Source: Pseudofabraea citricarpa (lineage: Eukaryota; Ascomycota; Leotiomycetes; Helotiales; Dermateaceae). From it: a stretch of DNA of 64,000 nucleotides. Both the position numbers and the translations under genes were made by a program. The DNA lies in assembly GCA_029641185.1 (NCBI GenBank), contig JAPWGK010000023.1, positions 434,001 to 498,000 of the forward strand, given 5' to 3'. Shown here piece by piece: positions 150-52,396 of this stretch (its first letter is position 1; each line of letters opens with the position of its first letter). The notes below the pieces were generated by a model. It made no database searches and was not told the origin of the DNA. It saw nothing but the letters and a program-made list of their open reading frames with translations.

Positions 150-2216
150 ATGATGGCTTCTTCTTCCCCTTCCTCTCCTTCTCCTGCTCCGTCTGCCAAA
201 AGAGAGACGATCGATACGCAGATTCTGCTCGATGGCGACGGCGGTGATGCGGTCCCGAAACGAACATCTCGTGAGTTTTCCCATCTTTTCTTTCCTCTCT
301 CTCCCTCCTCACTAAACCACCAGAAAAGAAATGGAGGCCGAGATTGAATTAACAGATCATCCTCTGACAGTCCCAGCACCAGCAGCTCTCGCTAGAGAAA
401 ATGATGCCCATCTCACGCTCTACGAGAAGAAGGCGCGCCTGATCGATGATGAGCTCGATGCTATGGGCATGGGCCGATACCAGTGGTATATCTGGAGTCT
501 CTGCGGCTTGGGCTATTTCCTGGACCTGTTGTGGGCGCAGGCTTTTGGCTTGGTTGCGGGCCCGCTGCAGAGGGAGTTGGGGTTTAGTGGTATGTCATCT
601 TTTTATCTTTTTCGTCGACTTATATGAAGAAAAAAGGAAGGATTGATCACTGATGTTTTTTCCCCTCTCTCGGATATAGATGCTCAATTAGGCAATATCT
701 TCACGGCGTTTAGTTCTGGTTTGTGTGCTGGAGCATTCGTCTGGGGCGTACTAGTAGATGTGATAGGTTAGTACCATGCCCTTCCTTGTCAAATTCAAAG
801 ACGAAAAACTGACGCAAAAGATAGGTCGGCGATGGGCGTTCAATGGTACGGTTTTGATTACATGTATATTTGGACTTTGTCTAGGGGCGCCGGATTCCTA
901 TAATGCCATTTTAGTCCTTACGGCATTCAATGGGTTTGGGATTGGAGGAAACATCCCCATCGATACTACCATCTGTCTTGAATTCATCCCACATGTAGGT
1001 TTCCACGCATTGTTGCTAACCGCCGTACCTGACAATTCCACTTCTGTAGAACCGACGCTTTCTTCTCGCTCTCCTATCCATCTTCCAACCTCTAGGAGTC
1101 GTCATCTGCAGCGGAATCGCATACGGCTTCATCCCCAACCACTCGTGCGCCGTGGATCTAAAAAGCTGCAAGGCATCCGACCTAGTACCAGGAGAGGCAT
1201 GCTGTACCAAAGCAGCCAACTACGGATGGAGGTACCTGATGTTCACGCTCGGAGGGATCTCGCTCTTCGTCTTCATCCTCCGGTTCCTCGTCTTCACCTT
1301 CCAGGAATCTCCCAAGTACCTGCTCGGCAAGGGGAAAGATGCAGCGGCTCTAGAAGTCCTGCATACAGTGGCACGTACGAACAGGCGAGAGTGCCACATA
1401 ACGATGGCGACGTTTGAAGAACTAGAGAGTAGCGATTCTTCATCTCCGAGCACCAGCTCGAGCTCGACTGAGAACGAAGGCGAAGCTGAGGAGAGAAGAG
1501 ACATGTTAAGCCGCCGTCGACGAAACCATGCTCCTCCTCCTCCTCCTCCTCATCGTGAGCAAGAGCTCGGACAGAAGAAGCAGAGCATCCGGTCACACAT
1601 GATATCAGAAGCAAAGCGAACGACGATTCTCTTCTCGACGCCGACCCTAACACGGCTGACGATTCTGATCTGGCTGATCTACGCATTCGACTACTGGGGC
1701 TTCAGCGTCGCGGGGTCGTTCCTGCCGACGATCCTGGCGCGCAAGAACTCCCGCATCGACGTGTCCATCAGCGAGACGTACCGGGACTACATCATCATCT
1801 ACGTGCCGGGGGCCGGCGGCGTCGCGCTGGGGGCCTACATGGTGTACATGCCGCGCGTGGGGCGCAAGTGGGCCATGGTGTTCTCGTCGCTGCTGATGGC
1901 CGTGTCGCTGTTCCTCTTCGCCGCCGTCAACACGCAGGCCTCCAACGTCGGCCTCAACGCCATGGAGTACTTCTTCCAGTCCATGTTCAACGCCGTCCTG
2001 TACGGCTGGACCCCTGAGGTCTTCCCTACCGAGGTGCGCGGCACCGCGGCTGGCCTCGCCAGTTTCTGGGGCAGGCTCTTTAGCATCTTCAGCCCCCTCA
2101 TCGCCGGCCATCTGCTCGCTGTCAGCTTGAATGGCCCGCTGTACCTTGCCGGTTCCGGTGTCTTGGTTTGTACCCTCGCCATTCTGGGTCTTCCTTCGAG
2201 GGGGTTCGAACTTTGA
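150..2216 (+). CDS. MFS transporter, SV2/sugar-porter-like
   Basis: Predicted 12-helix plasma- or endomembrane transporter of 601 residues; the substrate cannot be told from sequence. Exons 150-270, 329-589, 680-766, 825-994, 1050-2216, and every junction keeps phase. The loop 2-3 signature is present (DVIGRRW, completed by splicing at 766/825), as are its loop 8-9 echo (RVGRKW) and FPTEVRG near the end, as in sugar-porter/SV2-type MFS proteins. Helices 1-6 lie before about residue 270. A hydrophilic central loop with Ser/Glu runs and a six-proline stretch (about 1530-1550) separates the two halves. The first intron is the weakest call: the in-frame acceptor is at 327-328 rather than the better-looking CAG at 321-323. 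Translation could instead start at the ATG at 331, losing about 41 residues. Confidence 0.87.
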
Positions 2217-2940
2217 GCGTCTTTGGTTGAGAAATATAGAGGGAGAGAAGAGAAGAGAAGGGAAGGGAAGGGAAGGGAAGGGAAAGGAAGAAAGCGTCGG
2301 GCGTATACGTAAAGGGTTGGGGGTTAGCGGGGCGTTTGGATTTAACTTATGCTTTTCAGTACCTCGATAGATTATAGAGATCTTCTGCTTGTTGCGTATC
2401 TTTGTACCTCATGTTATGTCGACTGCCCATCTTCAAACTCGAGTTTCCTCGCTTGACTTCTAATAGCCGAGAGAGCACAAACAAATTTGATAACTTGGGT
2501 CAAGCGACTGATTTAGTTTGGGAATATGCGGAAACAAGCTGAAGAGATTCATAAATATCTAACACTGCCTACAAGCTAGCTAGCTAGCTACCTTATATAC
2601 GTACGCCCTACAAAAGCCTCCATCCTTTCTTTCCTGGCGATAAAAAAAAAGTAAAAATACTCTGCAAGCAAGACATGAGACGGCAAAAAACATGATATCT
2701 TATCTCGAAACCTATCAACACAAAAAAGCAATCTTGAACCTAGCTGGGAAAACTCTAAACACTACAAGGGATGTTAAATAGGCAAACATGAAATGCGTGC
2801 TACTTCCAAACAAGTTATCAAGTTGATGCACTGATGGTGCACACCCAGAACCCTTGAATACATGGCTTTGCCTTCCGTGCACGAGGCTTTCTTCTCCGCG
2901 TAAACCGAATTGTACATAACTGCGTTGTGTAGGAGCACGA
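2217..2940. other. convergent 3' intergenic region
   Basis: Spacer between two convergent genes. It holds an uninterrupted purine tract at 2239-2294 with repeated GGAAG units, in the presumed 3' UTR of the MFS gene, and a TAGC tetranucleotide run at about 2576-2591. No coding signal seen. Confidence 0.6.
2239..2294 (+). repeat. 56-nt purine tract (GAGAA/GGAAG)n
   Basis: Low-complexity all-purine run just after the MFS stop codon, beginning with GAGAA units and continuing as GGAAG units. It is a simple repeat that probably varies in length between strains. Confidence 0.85.
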
Positions 2941-4047
2941 TTAAGCCTTTGCTGCTTTGGATCTAGCCACCTGCGGTGGGTCTCGGTTGAATACAGTCCT
3001 GAATTCCTGGTAATAACGCTCAAGATCCCGAGCACCCTTATCTTCATAAATCTATAAATTGCTGTTAGCACGAGTCTTGCATAACGTGGAGGCTTTTTAC
3101 TGACCTTGCGCTGGCTTGCAGGTAGTTTGCTGAACTCTTCCTGAACGACTTTGTTGGCCTCCGGTACTTTCAGACCTTTCAGATCCCCAGAACTCCATCT
3201 TTCAACCAGGAAAAAGTTGTAAGGAGCCGACGGCCGTTTTGGAATTCGGATGTCATGAATGGGTTTCACATTTGCCTTTCTGATCTTGTTCAATTGGTTA
3301 CGTGCGTTGTTAGCCTCACGAATCTGCTCTGGTGTATGGGTCTCAACCCATTGGCTGAAAGCTGCTACATTGATATCTCTTTGCTGGTTGGCTTTGTGGT
3401 TCCATTGCTTGAAGGCACGAATTAGCAGTTGTCAAGTATCTGTGGCCGGATTGATTCTATACCTCTCGCTCGGCTGGGCTGAGCTCCTTGTATTTTGCGG
3501 CAGCATCTGGCATTGCTCGTTTAAGGAAACCGGCAGTGCTGCGATCGAGTGATTTGGTGAAGTCCTGGAAGAAGGATGTCCAGGCTGTGGGGCGAAGTGC
3601 AATCTTGGGTTGCGATAAGAGTAAAGATTTCTCCTTCAATTCCTTCAGGTTTCCCTTTGCCTTGAGTATCGCTTTTTTGGCCTTGATCTGTTCTTTCTTC
3701 TCTGGCGTCAGAACAGGTTTCTTAGCGACAGGCTTCCTCTTCAAAGGCTTCTTCGCAGCAGCTTTCTTCACAGTTGTCTTCGAAGCTGGTTTCTTGGCAG
3801 CCGGTTTCTTCGAGGCGGGCTTCTTTGCTGACTTGGGTGATGCTTTCTTGGTAGCTGTAGAAGCTGTAGCAAAGGATCGTCGAAGGACAGATGTAGATGG
3901 CGAGCGGTCCGAGGTGTTGTTGGGGGATTTGGAGCTATCAACTCGGTGCAGGTACCAGATATTTCGGATGGCTCGACTCTTGGTTGTGGTATGCGACGCG
4001 CCGGCGCCAACCCTCCTGATGGCGGCTCGGCCAATTGAATACATCAT
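2941..4047 (-). CDS. mitochondrial HMG-box DNA-binding protein (Abf2/TFAM-like)
   Basis: Likely packages or maintains mitochondrial DNA. The 332-residue model uses exons 4047-3463, 3407-3105 and 3051-2941, all phase 0, with donors GTATAG and GTCAGT. The N-terminus (about residues 1-58) is rich in Arg/Ser/Ala with few acids, like a mitochondrial presequence. A Lys/Ala/Pro repeat follows (about 67-115), then a first HMG-like box (about 150-220, broken by intron 1) and a second, clearer box (about 251-316) beginning PKRPSAPYNFF. The start is the first of two adjacent Met codons; longer upstream open frame lacks presequence features. The gene is divergent from Prp5. A nuclear HMG protein is possible, but the presequence and box spacing fit the mitochondrial class. 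Confidence 0.85.
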
Positions 4048-4469
4048 ATTGAAGATTTGCAGCAGCTGTTGATGGGTTGGTGTGTTGATGTCTTGGGAAG
4101 GGAGATGTGGGTGTGGGGAAATGAAAGAGTGACTGAAGCCGGCAGAAGAGCTCGCGTTCTGGCGTGCCAGCCCCTTCCTTTCCATGACACGCGAGCACAG
4201 CCTTGCGCCTTTGCTAACCATAAATGGCCTAGCCGCAATTCAGATGATCTGCCTTGTACTGCAACTTTATGTGACTGAGGGGAAAGCCAAAATTTTGTTA
4301 ATCTATCATCTAACTACACACACGCATCGCTGATTATTGTCTCACGCACAGCACAGGCACATCAGTTGCCCTAGTCACTACAGTTTACAGAGTGAAGTAG
4401 CGCGTTTGGTGATAACCCCAGCTGCCAGAAAGTATTTCTGCCCGTTGAAATACAGGCCGAGACAGAACA
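4048..4469. promoter_or_regulatory. shared divergent promoter, HMG-box gene / prp5
   Basis: 422 bp separate the start codons of the minus-strand HMG-box gene and the plus-strand prp5 gene, so both promoters and 5' UTRs must lie here. I see no convincing TATA box; the evidence is gene arrangement only. Confidence 0.6.
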
Positions 4470-7400
4470 ATGGCTCGGCACAGGGACTCTCGCTCACCAT
4501 CGCCAACAGGAAGCCAGCACTCCTCCAAACGAGTTCGAAGGGATGACGATATCCGGCGGGATAGAGATAGACGCGATGATGTCCGAGGGCCACCGCGCCG
4601 CCGCAGTCGCTCTCGAAGCATCGATGTAGGAGCGCCCAGAGCATGGAATGCCAGATCTCAGTTGACTGACCAAGCCCCCGCACAGCGCCGTCACCGAGAC
4701 CGCGATATCCCCCGACGACGAGATCGATCGATAGACCGCCGAGATGACTACCACAGAGTAGATCGAAGAGACAGATCAAGAGATCGCCGCGATAGATACG
4801 CAGACAGAGAACGATCTCCAGATAGACGGCGACGGAGAAGCCGTGATCGAGATTATCGTGACAGGCGAGACGACTCTTTGGATAGGGCTCGAAGGCGCGG
4901 CGTGGACTCAGCTGATTCGTGGTCCCACAGCAGAGATGAGAATCGCCCTAAACCCGTGAGCAAAGTGGACATTGCGAAACCTGCCGATGTAAGTTCTCCC
5001 GTATTGACAAGTCTGCAAGTGAGTTGCTAATATTATCTCACAGGCACCGAAGCCACCAGCTCCCGCTGGCCAATCCGAAGCCGATAAGAAGGCTGAGCGC
5101 CTGGCGAAGTTAGAAGCATGGAAAAAGAAGATGACAGAAGATAAAGAGCGCAAGGAAAAAGAGGCATCGGCTGGAGGACCGAGAAAGCTACTTGCTGAGA
5201 TAGATCAGAAAGCTAATGGATCTCCTGCAATTGCTTCACCAGCCTCTCCAGGAACTCCTAAGAATGCGCCTTCTCCAGCACCATATGCTGGAAAATTCGA
5301 CCCAAAGGCAATAGCCAAGAAAGCCGTGGCTACGTCAAACACTACAAATGCTCTCGGCAAGGATCTACCCCTAAAAGAATTGTCTAAGGCGTCTGCTACC
5401 TTAACTGCTTCTAAAGGGCTACAAGCTGACAAAAAGCCAACAGCTTTCAACAGCACATCAAATGGTAATATTCTGGACACTGCACTAGTTCTACTTCCAA
5501 AAGCTAATCGAAGTCTAACAGTTACAGCATCTGCATTACCTAAAGCTCGCGCAAACTTGAGTGGTTTCGGACTTGGCGCAAAATCCAACACCGACCACGA
5601 GAAGGCATCTTCAAAGCGAGCGTTAGATTTCGGCGAGGATGAGGGGGCAAGAAAAAAACTTGAGAAGCTACCAACCCTACCCTTAGCAAACATCGAAAAT
5701 GAGGATACTGCGCTCGCTAACGGTGATAATGGAGAAGATGACGACGACGATGTCGAAATGGAGGATGGGACAGAAGAAGAGGCGGCAGCTGCTGCAAGAG
5801 CTGCCGCTGAAAAACGTGAAGAGCGTCTTCAAGAACAATTGCAGACACAAGAGACTGATGAAGCTATGGAGCCACAAATCGATACCAATGGCGACATAAA
5901 AATGGCCGAAAATCCTGTTCCGCAACCTGAGCCTACACCAGTCGAAGAAGACGATGAAGTCGATCCTCTAGATGCCTTTATGGAGGAGATGGGTGATCCA
6001 TTTGCCGCGCCGAAAACGAATGACAGCTTCAACAAAACAAAGAGCAAGAGTCAGCAGCAGGAGCCCGAAGCATTGTTTGGTGATGACGATGTGGAACTCA
6101 AAGCCATGGAAGCGGATCCAGACGATATTCTTGCTATGGCAAGTAAAGCTCGGAAAAAGAAGGATTTGCCAACTGTCGATTATTCGAAGCTTGTTCTTGA
6201 ACCCTTCCGTAAGAACTTTTACACCGAACCAGCTGAGCTGACAGATATGACGGAAGCAGAGCTCGCAGATCTGCGACTTGAACTTGATGGTATCAAAGTG
6301 GCTGGTAAGGATGTCCCAAAACCAGTCCAGAAATGGGCCCAGTGTGGTTTGAATGCTCAATCGTTGGAGGTGATTCGCAAACTTGGCTACGAGAGACCAA
6401 CTTCCATTCAAATGCAAGCAATCCCGGCCATTATGTCCGGGAGAGACGTCATTGGTGTTGCCAAAACTGGATCTGGAAAAACCATTGCCTTCCTTTTACC
6501 CATGTTTCGCCATATTCGAGACCAACGACCCCTGGAAGGTTCTGATGGTCCAGTCGGTCTCATTGTGTCACCAACCCGAGAGTTGGCAACTCAGATTCAC
6601 AAAGAATGCAAGCCGTTCATTAAGGCTATGGGCCTTAGAGCCGTTTGTGCCTATGGTGGAGCCCCTATCAAAGACCAGATTGCTGACCTTAAGCGTGGAG
6701 CGGAGATAATTGTCTGTACCCCTGGCCGTATGATAGAGCTTTTGGGTGCCAACTCCGGTAGAGTAACAAATCTTCTAAGAGTTACATATGTTGTATTAGA
6801 CGAAGCAGATCGTATGTTCGATATGGGATTTGAACCTCAGGTCATGAGGATCTTTGCTAACATTCGTCCAAATCGACAAACCATTCTCTTTTCCGCAACA
6901 ATGCCTAGGATCATGGATGCATTAGCCAAGAAAACGCTCCAGTCACCAGTTGAAATTACTGTAGGTGGTCGAAGTGTAGTCGCCCCAGAGATTACCCAAA
7001 TTGTAGAAGTGCGAGAAGAGAAAGAGAAATTCCACCGACTTCTAGAGCTTCTCGGGGAGCTATACGATAAAGATGAAGACGCCCGAACCCTCATTTTTGT
7101 TGATAGGCAAGAGAAAGCAGATGACTTGCTTAAAGACTTGATGAGAAAAGGTTATCCATGCATGTCAATTCACGGCGGAAAAGACCAGATTGACCGAGAC
7201 TCAACCATCGATGATTTCAAAGCCGGAGTTGTGCCCATCATGATCGCCACTTCAGTTGCTGCCCGAGGATTAGATGTAAAACAGCTCAAGCTTGTTGTAA
7301 ATTTCGATGCGCCAAATCATTTGGAGGATTATGTCCATAGAGCTGGTCGTACAGGAAGAGCTGGCAATACTGGTACAGCAGTAACCTTCATCACCGAGGA

Positions 7401-35442: not shown

Positions 35443-38400
35443 TTACGCCTTCTGCTTACCGCTCCCCTTGGTCCCTTCTGCATCATGCTGATATGCAGAA
35501 CCAGTAGTAGTAGCATTGACCTCTGTCATCCAAGGATGTTTCATGCATTGCTTGATTGTAAATCTCTTCTCGGGGTCCACTACTAGCATATGATCGATAA
35601 GATCCAGCGCTGGATCGCCAATTGTGTCCCAGTACGGGGACGGGTAATCGAAACGTCCCAGCTTGATCTGCTCTGAAAGCGTATGAGGATTTTCTTTGCT
35701 GTAGAGCTCATCGCTGAAGGGTGGGAATCCACAGAGACAAATGTACAACACAACGCCGAGTGACCAAACGTCCACGGCTTTATTATATCGGCGATTATCT
35801 GCTTCTTGTAGTACCTCTGGCGCTACGTCTGCTTTTCGTTAGTTTCATACTCATAGCTAGTTGGGGAGTGCAAGAAGGGTGATAGCTTACAAGATGGTGT
35901 GCCGCATCTTCAAAAGGGTTAGCTGAAATTCTGACTGTTTGGGACTGAGACTTACAAAGTGTTATCGAATCCATCCTTGCCCGTTCTGATAGAGAGACTG
36001 AAATCCCCAAGTTTCACATGCACGTCCTTGTTCATGACAGAAATATTTTCAGGCTTGATATCTCGGTGGATGATATTCCGGTCATGCTATCACACCAATT
36101 AGCTAAAAGTTCTATGAAATACAGGCATGATTTTACGAACCAAATACTTGACAGCGGAGAACAATTGGCGAAAGATCTTTTGTGTTTCTTCTTCTGTCAA
36201 CTTTTCCTTTTTTGTAACCCAATCAAACAAATCTCCTTCGGTGGCATGCTCTTCGATTTGTAAACAGCATTCATCTTCAAGGAAAATTTCCTTCGGGCTG
36301 ACAATGTTCGGATGTGCAAGTGTAACATGCAGCGCGATGCTCTGACTGGGAACTGTCCCTTCATGCTTTGACTCTCTTGTCACATATCGTAGGCCGGTCG
36401 CCTGTTCAACACATAGATATACTTCATATTTGATTTTCTTCTCAAGGCTCTGCAGCTTGGAATATCGTGTTGCGTAAATTCCTCTATTATTTTCGCGGGA
36501 CTCCCTGAACACAAGATTGAAAATTTTCCCAATTGATATTATATCTCCCCCATTGAGCTGGTATGTTTCATTGAAGTGTACCGGCTGCCTATTGATAAGA
36601 GTCCCATTCGTCGAAGTATCCGTTATAAAGGCCCTCGTCACACCCGAAATGATGGCATAGAATATTGAACAATGGAGGTATGAAACTCTAGAAGTCTGTG
36701 CACGAACATCTATAGCGAGATAGAGATCAGTTTAACTTGTTGAATAGTTTGACAATTTTGCAAGGACCAGATCGTGATGAAAACCTCATGCTTTACTTAC
36801 CACATAATGAGTGACGCCCGATCAAGTATGCCAGTGAATAGGTTTCTACGATGGTAGAAGCGGCACCTTTTGAGCCTGACTCGACACTTAAACTGGCTTT
36901 GCTGTTCTGCGTTGTACCAAATTGTTTGTGACTTCTCAATTTCAAGGGAAGTACCCAGTTTTGGGAACTACAAGGACTCAAGTAACCCCATTCTGTCTCG
37001 GGTATTCTGCTTGAATACGGCCGTGCCCACAGCCTGGACCGCAACTCTAGAGTGTCACGCACAGAAAATTTCTCTTCGGAGTCATTATCTTCCAAGGGGC
37101 CAGAAGTGACTATGCAACTTAAGTTACGCTTGATACAATTCGAACATCGGTTTAGCGGATCTCTAGGTGAACTTAAACACTCAAGTCTCATTCTACGGCA
37201 TCGATCTATATTTAATCAGCCAAGCCCGTATATCTTGGTTCATGTTATAATTTCAGGCTTTCTTGGCTTACCGCATATTGTGGAACTTTCGTAGTAACCT
37301 GGCTTGTTAGATCTCTTATCTGATGTTGCAAACTCTTCGACTCTCTGTAGCAAAGTTTCGCGAGGCAAGACATATGCTAACTTGAGTGAGCTGCATCCAG
37401 AGATAATCATGCCCGCCATTGTGTCGCTTAATACATCTATGAACCAGGCTCCACAGTCACCCGGCACTTAAAGCAAGCATCAGTAGCCCGATAACACTTT
37501 TCGGCATAGGAACGGGCACTCACATAAATGTTCGTATAGATAAACAGAAAGAGTCTTAATAAATTTATCAGAGCCTTCTGGTTTGATAGCGCATGTAGCC
37601 CTTTGTTCATATCGGCCTTCAAGTGGTCCGTGTACAGTAGCTGCCAGAATACAAAATCGTGGTTCTTCAAGCTTGATATAGGTTGGGGTTGGAATTTGAT
37701 GGCCAATTCGAGAATATGACATGTTAGAGACTAATCGTGTAGGCAGCAGGGCGCAATCAATGTCGTGGTCGACCATATAAGCATCGTTTACAGATACGTT
37801 GCCGTCTATATTTAATATGCCGTGCGAGACCTTATCTTCTTGAACCGTACTTGTTTTTGTGAGTCGACCAGCTGTTTTCGAATACCTAGGTAAGCTTGGA
37901 ACGGATGTTGTCCAAATTTAGGATTAAAAGATCTGGGTAACAGGACAAAGAGAAGTAGGACGACTCACAAAATACAGGATCCCGAGTCTTAGAAGGCATA
38001 TAGCTATCATTGGGTGCCTCTGTTTCCGCTTCGCTGCCATATTCTTCAAAATCCACCGATCCGAAATGCCTGAGAACACCCAGTGAAATGGTTTCCATAG
38101 ATTTGTCAGCCGAAAGAGCGACTATTTCACTATCGTCATCGCTTTTGATCGATGAATAGTCTGTATCTGAGGACTCATCGCTGAACCCATCATTATCAAA
38201 TTCCAGCTTCAGGTCCCCAGGAGCTGCAGTTTTGGAATCAAGCGGTTGAAAGATATGCGCCACTGTTACAACAAAATCACCACCGTTGACTAGCATTTGG
38301 CCTCCAATCGTTGCACTGGCAGAGGCTGTAGAAATACGCATGCCAGCTAACTCCCGTGTACGTTTCAAACGTACAGTCGGCTCAGGCGTGTCGGCTGTGC

Positions 38401-39028
38401 TGTTTGGACTTTTGATATTGGGAATGCTGTCCGTTGAATGGTTATATGTAGGATTTTCAGGAGGATCAATCATTGGCACATCTTCGTTAGTAGAAGGGTT
38501 GTCGGCCGCGATCGAGAGTTGCTCTTGGCCTTCAGAGAAGGGTGACCCCCCATCGCGCTCAATTCGAGCAGCCAATGCCATCATACGGAACCCCGTGTCT
38601 TTGAGAGCTTTCTTTTTCTTCATCAGCCGTTGAGCTTCATCTCGATAATTCTTATCCTCCGAGACAAGAACCATTGTTGGGTGGGCATGATCTTGATCGA
38701 TCCCAACCATCCAACCATGCAGGCTTGCTGAAGGGCGATCATTTGGCCGTGAGAGCTTTCTCGGGTCGATAGGGTTCATCGTGAGAATGTTGAATGCTCT
38801 TGGAAATAATGTTTGCTCCCAAGTATCTTGTGCAATGCCCTGCAGGTCCCAGAGGGTATATCTGCCAACTTTTGTTGGCCACATTTCCCCGAATGAGGTT
38901 CTGAACTCATCTTTGGTACTCTTCGGAAATATACCCAGAGCGATAGTCTCTCTGGTGGCAGCCTCAAAGAGATGGAGCCCCGCAGTGGGATTTTCTATTC
39001 CTGTCATCGTGGTGGTCGGTGAAGTCAT
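35443..39028 (-). CDS. fusion protein: trypsin-fold protease-like + Zn2Cys6 + FHA + CHK2/Rad53-like kinase domain
   Basis: Predicted 1036-residue protein of unknown function. Exons 39028-37969, 37871-37524, 37466-37272, 37205-36801, 36709-36141, 36086-35956, 35907-35891 (17 nt), 35828-35443. Domain order: N-terminal region of a fungal protease-like family (1-225); a trypsin-like domain with His258 (TVAHIF), Asp392 (DIDCALL) and Cys474 in GDCG where Ser is usual; a Zn2Cys6 cluster with Cys534, 537, 544, 555, 558 and 565; an FHA domain (about 640-740: LIGRH, SYLH, TSTNGTLIN); then a kinase domain (about 748-1010). The kinase keeps HRDIKPEN (866-873), APE (911-913) and DVWSLG, but has no glycine loop, Arg781 at the VAIK Lys position and DFS for DFG. 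Exons 3, 4 and 5 each span two neighbouring domains without a stop, so the fusion does not rest on splice prediction alone. The ATG at 39028 is the first in frame. Confidence 0.85.
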
Positions 39029-39383
39029 GTCGATTGATACTGAGGAAGCAACCTCATTCAAGACGTGACAATTGCCCAGCGAAGTTCTCTACAATCATCT
39101 TCGATAGAAGAATAAGAAGAAGAATAAGAAGAGACGATGATGCTGCTGAGGCTCCATTGTGCAACAGCCTCTGAGCACAAGGCTTTCTTCGTTGGGCTGG
39201 GCTGAATGTGGCAGTGAAGTCGCCGTGCAGTAGCGCACAGGACGGAACATGGGGGCCAGTGGTGCGCACGTGATGAGCTGAATCGCCCTTTAGATTTCAT
39301 TTAAAGCCACAAAGGCTGGACGACGCTTTTGAGGCTTACTTCCAGGAGTTTTTATTTCCACTGGTATTATAGATTCTGTTGTG
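39029..39383. promoter_or_regulatory. divergent intergenic region between fusion gene and broken membrane-protein gene
   Basis: 355 bp between the two start codons, so both promoters, if alive, overlap here. A short AAGAAGAATAAG repeat lies at about 39108-39130. No TATA box stands out. Confidence 0.5.
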
Positions 39384-40777
39384 ATGAACGAGCCGGACCT
39401 CTCTCAACTCTCGTTATTCGAACCCTTACCACCTCGCCTGAGAGTTCGTGTCTGCGATGCGATCATTTCGGAATTTTGGGTTACGAGACTACCAAAGTAC
39501 TTCAATTCCCTCTTAGGAACCGAGAATTAAAGCTCATATTGTATTCCAGTCTAAAACTCAAAACATTTGACGATACTTCTGCTTATATCGAGTTTTTCGA
39601 ACGGGAATGCCGCAATGCCAGAAGGCGAGATCATGCAGCAAAGTCTTATCAAGATATCATTGATATTATACATCATAGCCATCTGGTTGGAAACAGAAAG
39701 CTATCGAGAGAATACTTGAGGAATACTCTTTGCTGCTTATGCCCACAGCTCCGTTCTGACTTTGGGATGAGCCTCGAGGCAAACGAAAGCGCTATTGTAA
39801 GATATCAGCCACTCAACCCAATCGTGAAAAAGAGTCTAAGACACCACAAAGGAAATTCTGGATAATTCCATGGATCTAGCCTTCCGTGTTTTCCTCATGG
39901 TCAAACTTCAACGAGCTGATTCTCACCACTTCTCAAATCCATATGCCATAGCAGGCGAAACTATAATCAGTTGGCAAGGCAAACAAACGTTGAATGAAAT
40001 ACTGGATAATGAGTTCCAAGAGAGTCAAGTGCGAGCTCACAGGGACCGTGAGTTCTCAGCTTTGCTCACAGCTCAGAATCTCGAGCTATATGGAGGGTTT
40101 CGCATTACCTGGAGTATATATTTGAACGTTGTGTCTTCTTGAAAAGGAATGTACTAACGTAAGTAGCTAGCAACCTTGCCGAACACCTCTGCATAACACG
40201 GTACGACAACTTCACTGAAGTAGCTATATTCCACTATGCTACTGTATTGCATTGGCATTCTTCGAGGTATGTTGACTACTCTTGAAAGTAGCTATTGCTC
40301 CTCTAACAGCAGGGAAAATAGTGGTATTCTCCCACGCGGGCTAGCAGAAGAAACTCTTCGCACGCTGGCCCTCCTATTGCCATCAAGAGACTTCGCAACG
40401 AGTCACTACTCGCGCTCGGGAATTGACACGCGAGCTTTCTCACATGGTGAGACTCACCAGAGGGATCTACGTAAAGTAACGAAATCCCCAAATCCCGCCC
40501 GAAACTGAGGCCACAGCTGACTCCTTGGCCAAACAAGGTAGCAACGTATACATATTGGCGGGATCGGCTCTTGAACCTTGAGAGAGCCTTCGATGAATCC
40601 GAGCCAGCTTCGCTCTGGCAATGGTGGTACGACCGACGGAAACGCCGCGAGTGGGCTACATTCTGGGTCGCTGTCTTAGTGCTCGTGCTCACAATCTTCT
40701 TTGGATTGATCCAGAGCATCACCGGGATTGTGGGTGCCTGGGCTGCTGTGCAACAGCTACAGCAGGGTGGTAATTGA
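39384..40777 (+). pseudogene. broken copy of a widespread ascomycete membrane-protein family of unknown function
   Basis: Conserved pieces appear in the right order but in shifting frames. From the ATG at 39384: FEPLPPRLRVRVCDAI and LPKYFNSLLGTEN, then a TAA at 39525-39527. One frame over: FDDTSAYIEFFERECRNA, then SYQDIIDIIHHSHLVG. A likely intron (about 39797-39851) leads to EILDNSMDLAFRVFLM. After 40142 the frame breaks again before NLAEHLCITRYDNF (from 40172). The end is FDESEPASLWQWWYDRR and a hydrophobic helix (about 40668-40745), stop at 40777. The family, as I remember it, is an N-terminal FERECRNARRRDHA region plus a C-terminal membrane anchor. At least one 1-nt shift (near 39520) cannot be explained by an intron. 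A sequencing error there would rescue only part of it. Confidence 0.7.
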
Positions 40778-49736: not shown

Positions 49737-52396
49737 TTATACCAAATACCACCTCTCCTCCTTGGTCCTCCAGCTCGCTTTCAAAGCCGGCCGCCTCATC
49801 TCCTCGCGGTCTGCCTCCGTATAAGGGATCCGCGGATACTTGAAGTAATCACTTCCGTCCAAGACCACACTCACAAGCCTGACGTACTGAGCCGTCCACG
49901 TAAACCAGCCTCTCCTCTGGACGACAAGCAAAGCTGCGCGTGTTGCTGGAAACCCCCATCTGCTGCCCTTTCCAGCGCCTGTATCTTCCACGGGCGAATC
50001 CAGCTCTTTTGGCAAGAGCTCCACAATGACAGCGAGCTGTTTTGCTCGTGCGAGAATGGCGGCCGCGCCGGAAAAATCCAGCGTATCGACGCCTGGCCGG
50101 ATGAAATACTTCTGGCCGTCTAATTCGCAGACGAGGAAGTTCTTCACGGGCTCGTCGCATGCAGGAGGCGGGGGCAGTACGAAAGCCTTTCGCGGCGGGA
50201 GCTGCACGGTGAGTCCTACTGTGGGAGCCAGCGGGATTCGCAGGAGAGAATTTAGGATCCACCGAGGTCTTCCTCCCCAGATATCGTCCGACACCCAGCT
50301 CTTGGAGATGGCCCCTGTAAGCTCTGTTCCTGGGCCCGTTTTCTCGCACGGCATTAAGGATGCTGGCGCCCATGTGAATCCGGCGATGGGCAGTTTGGCT
50401 CCAGGAACGAAGAGAATTGGCACGGGCAATCCCGAGGTATGCAGTTCCCAGAATCTACGCATCCGCTCGTGAGCTTCTGCTTCGGTCACAACTTCATGGT
50501 CTTCGTCGCTTTGAGATTCGTCTTTGGGAAGTGTACCAAGGATATATCTCAGATCAAAATCCATGAGGATCGCGCCGCAAATCGGTTCGTCGCTTGCCAT
50601 CGTTACCGACCGGCTACTCAAGATCTCTGCCCAGATGTACTTTATTCGCGAGGCGGGAGTTTTGAGCGTTAGATAGTGCGTGAACGACGTGTAGCAGTCC
50701 CAGCCAATCGAATTATAGTAGTTGGTACGCAGATCTACCTGCCGTTCTTCCCAGCGAAGGCTGCCCGTGGAAGTGATGATGGATTCTTCTTTGAACTGGA
50801 AAAGAAGACTGTGACCCACAGTGAGATGGTTAACTCGCGCTCGGGGGTTGGATCATCTTACCGCTTTGCCAGGACTGCTTCTTGTGCTGTCCATAGTCGC
50901 CGGATCCAGCGCGAGCTCTGAATCCGCATGTTCACCTCCTCGTACGACGCTCTGGCGGACGATGCTAGAAACTCGGCATCGAGCACCAAGACCCTCTCTG
51001 CTTCTGCATATACATGCCTCATGCTCATGACGGCTTTGTTGTGGATATCCTTAGGTGTTCGAGGAACACATAGCGTATCCATCCAGAAATATAGCTTTCC
51101 AACGTGCCCTCTGTCCGGAGCTGGGACCCAACTCCCATCGGAAGATGGCAGTGAGTATGAAGAAGCGCGTTGCCATCGCCCCGAACAAGATTGCATCTGA
51201 AAATCAGACAGTCTCTGGAAATTGCCTACCTCCTTTTGTGTTTTAAAGTCGGGGATGGAGTAGCTTGCTTTCATCCAGGTTACCAGCTGTTTAATCCTGC
51301 AAAGTGAGAGACTATTCTTTTGCGGATTGCCCCAACCGTCTGACCAGCTACGATGATGTTAGCTAAGTTTTCCTTTTCTACTCTTGGCAGTCATGAGGAT
51401 TCCTTACACGTGTGAGAGAGCAACATATTCCAAATCCGGCTGGCTTTTTGACGATATTACATCCAGTGTCTTGGTATATTCGTCAAAACATAACACGGGC
51501 ACCTCATCCTTTTCCACGATCTCAGCAAGATGAACGCTATCTACTTCAACCGTGTCACATTGGCACCCCGGGATCAGATGCTTATCAAAGCCAGCAAATC
51601 CCCAATAGCCCTTGCAGTCCTTATCGGATTTGGTACACTGGCTATGATCAAGCTGTCGCACGGGAGGCTGGAATAGACTGATGTAATACTGGCCGAGTAA
51701 ATTACAGGACTTCTGCATCTGGTCGCTGACAACAGGGCACCAGTTGAGCTCCTTCATACGCTTCTCCATGAAGGCATCTGGGGTGATTCTCCAATGCATA
51801 TCATTCTCCCACGGCACGACTCGATATCCCGGCTGCGAAGCCGTCTCAAGAGGATAAATATAACATCTACCCAGACCACAAATCTCAGTGGCTCCGACTT
51901 GCAGCGTGTTGGCCATGACATGAATCCCAAAATAAGCCTCTTCCGGTAGAGGGTTGTTTTCCAGGTCTGCGAGCGCTAGCCAATAGCTACGTGCAACACT
52001 GAAGCAGTTGCGGATCCGGACGTTGCGCACTTGGAAAATCTCCTTCATGTTTTCCTCAAGTCGCTCTTCTTCAACTCGCTCTCGGAATGCTTGCATGTAC
52101 TCAGGTAGCTTCTGTGTCGTGATCCACTTCCCTGATTCATCCGTCCGCACGAAATCATCCATTTGGATATCGGTGTGGAGAATCTCGCGTATCATTCCAA
52201 AGTACAGCCATGTCTGGAGAAAAGATGCGATTTGTTCTGGGGAGAAACCTTGCAGTTCTCCCTGCAACAACAGGTTGACATTTAATCCTCTCGGATTGTG
52301 GAAGTCGGAAAAGTCGAACGAGTCGGCATTGTGATCTGCTAGAAACGGAATGAAAATAGGCTTGTAGGGATTTACAACTGGTGGTAGATGTTCCAT
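49737..52396 (-). CDS. HET-domain (heterokaryon incompatibility) protein
   Basis: Predicted 848-residue protein; HET domains are related to TIR folds and often trigger incompatibility-type cell death. Exons 52396-51408, 51347-50862 and 50808-49737. An N-terminal region of about 310 residues without a recognised domain precedes the HET domain: YVALSHVWSDGWGN (about 323-336, completed by splicing), YFWMDTLCVPR, then WIRRLWTAQEAVLAKR at the second intron. Between the first two motifs lies an unusually long linker (about residues 345-415). The C-terminal 350 residues are specific to this protein. HET genes vary strongly between species, so function is inferred from the domain only. Confidence 0.88.

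Follow-up and report, generated by a model that had tools for sequence, protein, structure and literature searches.

Introduction

In Aspergillus nidulans, the protein SltB (AN6132) joins a pseudokinase and an S64-like serine protease in one chain of 1272 residues, and it works in cation and pH stress. In the available parts of PMC4557415 and PMC11011638, SltB is said to cleave itself before it cleaves the zinc-finger factor SltA; deletion of SltB prevents the cutting of SltA from 78 to 32 kDa, and the pseudokinase is perhaps a prodomain. The available text of PMC4557415 reports no gene resembling just the protease part of SltB. Here, a gene with related anatomy is described from Pseudofabraea citricarpa (GenBank assembly GCA_029641185.1, contig JAPWGK010000023.1, positions 434,001 to 498,000). 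This 64,000-nucleotide stretch, analysed as a whole, is termed the window. Its fusion gene is predicted to place a trypsin-fold protease module, a Zn2Cys6 cluster, an FHA domain and a Chk2-like pseudokinase in a single chain of 1036 residues.

The gene appears, from its sequence, to be a chimera of three sources: a trypsin-fold protease family with an SltB-like protein among its members, a Zn2Cys6 regulator that supplied the cluster, and a rapidly evolving Chk2 copy that begins at the pre-FHA segment. It is read in this way because each side of both joints is homologous to a different gene, and because four of its introns match, in codon and phase, introns of module-related genes at other loci of the same genome (L057 and L058 for the protease, L014 for the cluster and L017 for the kinase). 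The modules themselves are known, and their combination appears to be new within the searches made.

Gene structure

The window lies in a contig of 772 kb (C16), within a genome of 44 Mb and 43 contigs. The fusion gene consists of eight exons on the minus strand, from 39028 to 35443, which join to give 1036 residues with zero inner stops; when the joined exons are read in the two remaining forward frames, 46 and 68 stops appear. All seven introns have GT–AG ends and lengths of 48–97 nucleotides, and each contains one CTNAY site 9–18 nucleotides before its 3′ end. The acceptor of intron 1 must be the one before 37871, since use of that before 37885 breaks the frame. The fusion gene is strongly supported as real, with its splicing resting on sequence and homology.

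An earlier note on this DNA had proposed this eight-exon, 1036-residue model, and it proves to be exact, as do the three exons that were named (37466–37272, 37205–36801 and 36709–36141). Neighboring domains are indeed linked within single exons, in exons 3, 4 and 5, and one gene model holds the four domains in the order claimed. A domain search on the translation, which had been suggested as a check, bears out the FHA domain (E 3.6e-12) and Pkinase (E 9.7e-58), both above the Pfam cut-off, while Zn_clus falls below it and no protease family is found. Rfam gives nothing at gathering scores.

The zinc cluster and the first joint

Residues 534–565 have the spacing CX2CX6CX10CX2CX6C, which fits the Zn2Cys6 pattern CX2CX6CX5–12CX2CX6–9C in its X10 form. 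Shuffling the protein 200,000 times never produced this spacing, which is also absent from all unspliced frames of the window. The first cysteine is encoded by exon 3 (37272–37466, minus strand) and the other five by exon 4 (36801–37205, minus; cysteines to 37114). This means that the cluster is completed only by splicing of intron 3 (37206–37271, minus), a phase 1 intron directly after the first cysteine.

The best match to the zinc part elsewhere in the genome is the Zn2Cys6 gene L014 (C34:559k, E 0.0016). In pairwise alignment, residues 519–565 show 45% identity with L014 across 47 residues, with an E of 5e-13 and a start 15 residues before the first cysteine, so that an NKxGY segment upstream of the cluster is shared; the unrelated cluster of L055 gives 8e-7, and its alignment begins only at the first cysteine. 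L014 also has an intron after its first cysteine, at the codon and phase of intron 3 as judged by eye. The other four genome matches to the zinc part have no stop across this position. The early start of the L014 homology and the shared intron together place joint 1 near residue 518/519, within exon 3, whose 3′ part encodes the 15 L014-like residues (519–533) and then the first cysteine. The cluster is downstream of the protease nucleophile, at a distance of 60 residues.

Downstream of the cluster, no middle homology (fungal regulatory) domain is found by Pfam at E ≤ 10. Not every Zn2Cys6 regulator has such a domain. The earlier assignment to Zn2Cys6 regulators stands in its cysteine spacing and L014 homology, with the change that no regulatory domain follows.

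The Chk2-like part and the second joint

Residues 607–1009 are related to Chk2-type kinases. The FHA domain scores 47 bits in Pfam against a cut-off of 20.7, and a database search with the FHA-kinase part gives 840 matches; among the best 120 of these, every protein has Pfam FHA and Pkinase, and coverage of the query is 34–45%. The genome also has a normal Chk2 gene, L017, which is 53% identical to this part of the fusion gene. L017 is itself nearest to a metagenome protein (83%) and then to proteins of Tricladium and Mollisia (79%), and it pairs with Mollisia in a tree with support of 92/87, which is below the tool's star. These relations suggest that the host is probably a leotiomycete.

Chk2 homology begins at WGYL (from 36990), 55 residues before the FHA domain, and this places joint 2 inside exon 4, which runs from the cluster through a linker and WGYL to the FHA opening LIGRH. 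Intron 4 (36710–36800, minus) follows LIGRHSLC within the FHA domain, and intron 5 (36087–36140, minus) separates KYL from HDR; by eye, both have the codon and phase of introns in L017. Descent from Chk2 is indicated by these two shared introns and by the closest matches (the best 120 of 840), which are Chk2 orthologues. Exon 5 (36141–36709, minus) encodes the FHA core and a degenerate kinase N-lobe, and exon 6 (35956–36086, minus) encodes C-lobe sequence. Exon 7 (35891–35907, minus) is a micro-exon of 17 nucleotides just before the kinase APE motif. It is flanked by introns of 48 and 62 nucleotides that are absent from L017, which reads through intronless there. Exon 8 (35443–35828, minus) encodes the end of the C-lobe, the C-terminus and the stop.

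The kinase has lost several catalytic residues. Both glycines of the Gly loop are gone, the VAIK lysine is replaced by Arg781 and followed by a ten-column gap, the alpha-C glutamate is Ser793, and the glycine of DFG is Ser889, which gives DFS. HRDIKPEN, the DF of DFG, and APE are retained. Because of these losses, the domain is predicted to be a pseudokinase, and a reading as an active kinase was rejected. The CHK2/Rad53-type FHA kinase of the earlier note is upheld in its ancestry and revised in its activity.

An alignment of 118 Chk2-type proteins shorter than 760 residues, out of 120 listed, allows these losses to be located. Compared to these orthologues, the fusion protein keeps 6 of 8 near-invariant positions before the FHA domain, 19 of 32 in the FHA domain, 17 of 37 in the N-lobe and 97 of 116 in the C-lobe. 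The corresponding values for L017 are 8/8, 32/32, 36/37 and 116/116. In a tree of 32 of the 118 aligned proteins and three other rows, the Chk2-like part of the fusion gene has an end branch of 4.57 compared to a median of 0.13, and its position is not resolved. The FHA domain retains Arg665, Ser679, His682 and TNGT. Arg665 and Ser679 are taken here to be phosphothreonine-binding positions, and phosphothreonine binding by this domain is uncertain.

The protease module and its family

Residues 1–518 comprise an N-terminal module and a predicted trypsin-fold protease with the triad His258, Asp392 and Cys474 in order. Exon 1 (37969–39028, minus) encodes the N-terminal module, a linker, His258 (38257–38255) and the start of an acidic insert. 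Exon 2 (37524–37871, minus) encodes the remainder of the insert, the catalytic Asp392 (37758–37756) and a PLEGR motif also found in L058. Exon 3 carries Cys474 (37455–37453) in GDCGAW, and the protease ends within it at residue 518 (37321). Intron 2 (37467–37523, minus) lies directly before the GDCG or GYCG box and agrees by eye in codon and phase with introns of the protease genes L057 and L058, while L063 has an intron of the same phase two codons further up.

The nearest relatives of the module are L057, L058 and the A. steynii protein P170DRAFT_175299 (P0121), all of which share with it a stretch at the N-terminus that contains a PT or PS motif. P0121 is 505 residues long and aligns to residues 60–518 with 23% identity (pairwise E 4e-20). 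Searches with the module and related sequences reveal ten loci of this family in the genome, namely L055–L063 and the window gene; those at C14:57k (E 0.0185) and C23:1542k (E 0.058), and the window itself (E 0.015), were accepted on motifs. The earlier note had placed this part with trypsin-fold proteins that have a GDSG box. The box is GDCG, and assignment to the GDSG serine proteases is rejected. The nucleophile is a cysteine in the window gene, L057, L058, L061 and P0121, and a serine in L055, L056, L059, L060, L062 and L063. Since five of the 11 members that were read, window gene included, have the cysteine, it is unlikely to be a lesion.

The trypsin fold is well supported by the family profile. 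Smaller family alignments (A2 and A3) had three and four members; the core alignment has ten rows, from nine genome loci and P0121, with L059 left out and acidic inserts and linkers cut by hand. The motifs TxxH, DxAL and G-x-[S/C]-G occur in order, with the histidine and aspartate invariant in all ten rows. Nine columns are invariant: T and H in TxxH; D, A and L in DxAL; the two glycines of G-x-[SC]-G; and two further glycines. Searched against PDB sequences, the profile gives 29 matches at E ≤ 10. Twelve are named as trypsin-fold (PA-clan) proteases, and the remaining 17 are presumed to be PA-clan proteases as well (these presumed members include Der p 3, AlgW, NARROW LEAF 1 and three viral entries). 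The best match is Der p 3, with an E of 5.3e-4. In addition, hhalign aligns the H, D and S of E. coli DegP/Q/S with the family triad (P 0.0018, reported probability 15%), and a Chk2 control gives P 0.69. Pfam Trypsin_2 is matched by three of ten family members (best 3.4e-4) and not by the window protein; Trypsin, S29 and S64 (PF08192, E 0.029) are matched by one member each, and six unrelated families also by one member each, all at 0.1 or worse.

Searches with single sequences or smaller alignments were less informative. PDB searches found no protease with residues 1–656 (best, a zinc-cluster protein, E 0.1) or with P0121 (best, a general transcription factor, E 1.5), and nothing with alignment A3. 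NCBIfam gives no protease match for four relatives.

The family is modular in this genome. L062 (C34:2367000–2375000; frame 2425–5952, minus) encodes 1176 residues with a HeLo domain (8.5e-7, above cut-off), a kinase-like part that matches DUF7580 below cut-off (1.1e-4), and a protease with GDSGAWVVD. L061 (C20:112500–119500; frame 1466–4402, minus; 979 residues) joins a GDCG protease and an RRM domain (2.1e-13). Inspection by eye suggests C2H2-like stretches in L056 and L058, which are unconfirmed by Pfam, with only zf-C2H2_12 at 0.1 in L056 and PAS_3 below cut-off in L058. At L055 (C17:635000–642000), a GDSG protease gene is followed about 480 nucleotides downstream by a Zn2Cys6 frame on the same strand. 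L055 was considered as a second protease-Zn2Cys6 fusion and rejected, as its protease frame ends nearly where the close relatives L059 and L060 end, and the two are taken as separate genes.

Relatives of the whole architecture

The earlier note knew of no protein with the same four domains in this order, and none emerged here: no full-length relative is found among the best 120 of the 840 FHA-kinase matches. A further protein search (7997 candidates scored, a number probably filled by the acidic insert) gives one match, which does not have the full-length architecture. A genome search with residues 1–656 gives seven matches, of which the four strong ones are all at the fusion locus and the other three have E values of 0.05–0.11. 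Literature searches, judged by their listings, show no paper on a protease-Zn2Cys6-FHA-pseudokinase architecture, and in a paper on fungal NLR domains (PMC9815663) the main text available includes neither “trypsin” nor “FHA”.

Possible function and alternative explanations

Given that one chain carries a trypsin-like protease, a zinc part for DNA binding and a pseudokinase, it is read most economically as a lineage-specific chimera that works like SltB and SltA in cis. This reading is adopted tentatively, at somewhat less than an even chance. The FHA domain would dock on a phosphothreonine partner, while the pseudokinase would restrain or position the protease. On a signal to the FHA domain and pseudokinase, the protease would be freed and would cut its own chain near the zinc cluster, and this cut would release or destroy the adjacent Zn2Cys6 DNA-binding part. 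The outcome would be a phospho-signal turned into altered DNA binding or transcription. In its most specific form, the protein would be a self-processing transcription switch, in which a cysteine protease gated by the FHA domain and Chk2 pseudokinase responds to checkpoint-type phosphorylation with a cis cut that frees or removes the DNA-binding fragment, and the SltB/SltA pathway is condensed into one gene; this is rather unlikely to be right in full. The intact frame, the spliceable introns and the family relation of each module are observed, and every step of the mechanism is proposed beyond them.

Several observations weigh against the SltB-like chimera. No cleavage site was identified in the window protein, and a database search with residues 1–645 gives no match (7994 candidates scored, again probably filled by the acidic insert). 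Pfam on the window protein alone finds no protease family; the fold rests on profiles, with Der p 3 the sole PDB match below 0.001, and an AlphaFold model of P0121 from a four-row alignment has a predicted local distance difference test score of 39.7. Zn_clus reaches 17.2 of the 21 bits of its cut-off (E 0.0054). The FHA domain keeps just 19 of 32 near-invariant positions and has an altered SNRH motif (N680Y, R681L). Finally, L062 is likened to SltB by anatomy alone, and its DUF7580 match is below cut-off.

The main rival is an immune or non-self sensor with baits, which has a modest chance of being correct. Its output would be the protease, which might for example activate a cell-death protein; the zinc cluster, the FHA domain and the pseudokinase would serve as decoys copied from host regulators or as docking sites for an intruder factor. 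An arms race of this kind would make the gene diverge fast and confine it to one lineage, and the very long Chk2-like branch and the lack of a full-length relative (best 120 of 840; 7994 and 7997 candidates scored) are consistent with this. Gasdermin-controlling proteases of fungi frequently occur in fusion with repeats or kinase-like domains, as described in the available part of PMC12881547. The family member L062 combines a HeLo domain with a kinase-like part, and a frame with a HET domain is found some 12 kb from the fusion gene; both are circumstantial evidence for the non-self role that the earlier note had raised. However, the Pfam scan of the window protein shows no NACHT, repeat or HET domain, gasdermin families match none of nine window stretches scanned (Pfam may not cover the fungal ones), and the studied protein nearest in anatomy, SltB, acts in cation and pH stress according to the accessible text on it.

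The remaining alternatives deny the gene a function or its unity. A recent functionless chimeric relic, drifting since kinase activity was lost, would account for the missing catalytic residues and the low retention in the N-lobe (17/37) and FHA domain (19/32). It is improbable, as 1036 codons remain without a stop or frameshift even though identity of the Chk2-like part to Chk2 has fallen to about one half, the splice and branch-like sites are intact, and loss is unequal, with the C-lobe retaining 97 of 116 near-invariant positions. It is quite improbable that two genes have been read as one, the first for a protease that would end in intron 3 and the second for an FHA-pseudokinase that would start in exon 4. 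Retention of intron 3 would indeed give a stop after 544 residues, near the length of P0121, but such a division would break the zinc cluster, leaving the first cysteine and the L014-shared NKxGY in exon 3 and the remainder in exon 4. Moreover, intron 3 stands at an intron position of L014 itself, and residue 540, where exon 4 has its first in-frame ATG, falls within the cluster. An assembly artefact joining unrelated genes would explain why the architecture was not seen elsewhere in the searches above, yet both joints are in frame and inside exons, the contig is long, and the four strong genome matches to residues 1–656 are all at this locus; an artefact is very improbable indeed.

If the chain of the SltB-like chimera is made as predicted, it would suggest that SltB-like proteases act on DNA-binding partners close enough for fusion, and one construct would allow protease activity, cleavage and DNA binding to be tested together. 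The published protease-transcription factor pathway of SltB and SltA gives a direct test of this reading. The gene also appears to be a clear case, through its four shared intron positions, of three known genes combined into a new one, and an example of a Chk2 copy turned predicted pseudokinase. It belongs to a fungal protease family with ten loci in one genome, in which cysteine replaces serine in nearly half of the members read.

Neighboring genes

The fusion gene has a head-to-head neighbor at 39305–40777 of the window on the plus strand, with several open frames that end in a hydrophobic WATFWVAVLVLVLTIFFGLIQS tail. A Pfam scan of three stretches gives no family above cut-off, and the neighbor is taken to be a common fungal protein type. 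The HET domain (2.8e-9) is encoded at 50861–51358 on the minus strand.

Comparison with known systems

Ssy5, the yeast amino-acid sensor protease of MEROPS family S64, resembles the window protein, as predicted here, in belonging to the PA clan and in processing a transcription factor, according to the available text of PMC5567314 and PMC4557415, and differs in being described as single-domain (PMC5567314). PF08192, the S64 family, matches only the one family member already mentioned, weakly. P0121 shares the N-terminal module, the GDCGAW protease and the triad order; it has no Pfam match, and the zinc cluster, FHA domain and kinase are all absent. L014 shares the cluster spacing, the NKxGY segment before the first cysteine and the intron after it; by contrast, the frames within the 3.1 kb read show neither a protease nor an FHA-kinase part.

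The Chk2/Rad53-type kinases, whose Neurospora member is PRD-4, are represented here by L017. They share the pre-FHA WGYL segment, the FHA domain, the C-lobe and two intron positions with the fusion gene, in which the N-terminus has been replaced, the ATP-binding residues have been lost and the C-terminal tail is missing. Within the protease family, L062, with its HeLo, kinase-like and protease parts, has an SltB-like anatomy, although HeLo is not named for SltB in the text available.

Like SltB, the window protein has a trypsin-like protease and a pseudokinase in one chain and is tied to a zinc-finger DNA-binding regulator; the zinc finger of SltA is of the C2H2 type. The two proteins differ in order, since the pseudokinase of SltB is N-terminal while the window protein has protease, Zn2Cys6, FHA and pseudokinase, and in nucleophile, which is a proposed serine in SltB and a cysteine here. 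In addition, neither an FHA nor a DNA-binding domain is named for SltB in the text available, its target SltA is a separate protein, and the window pseudokinase is of apparent Chk2 origin. The coupling of proteolysis, DNA binding and phosphothreonine recognition proposed in the earlier note would thus find its precedent, by analogy, in the SltB/SltA pair.

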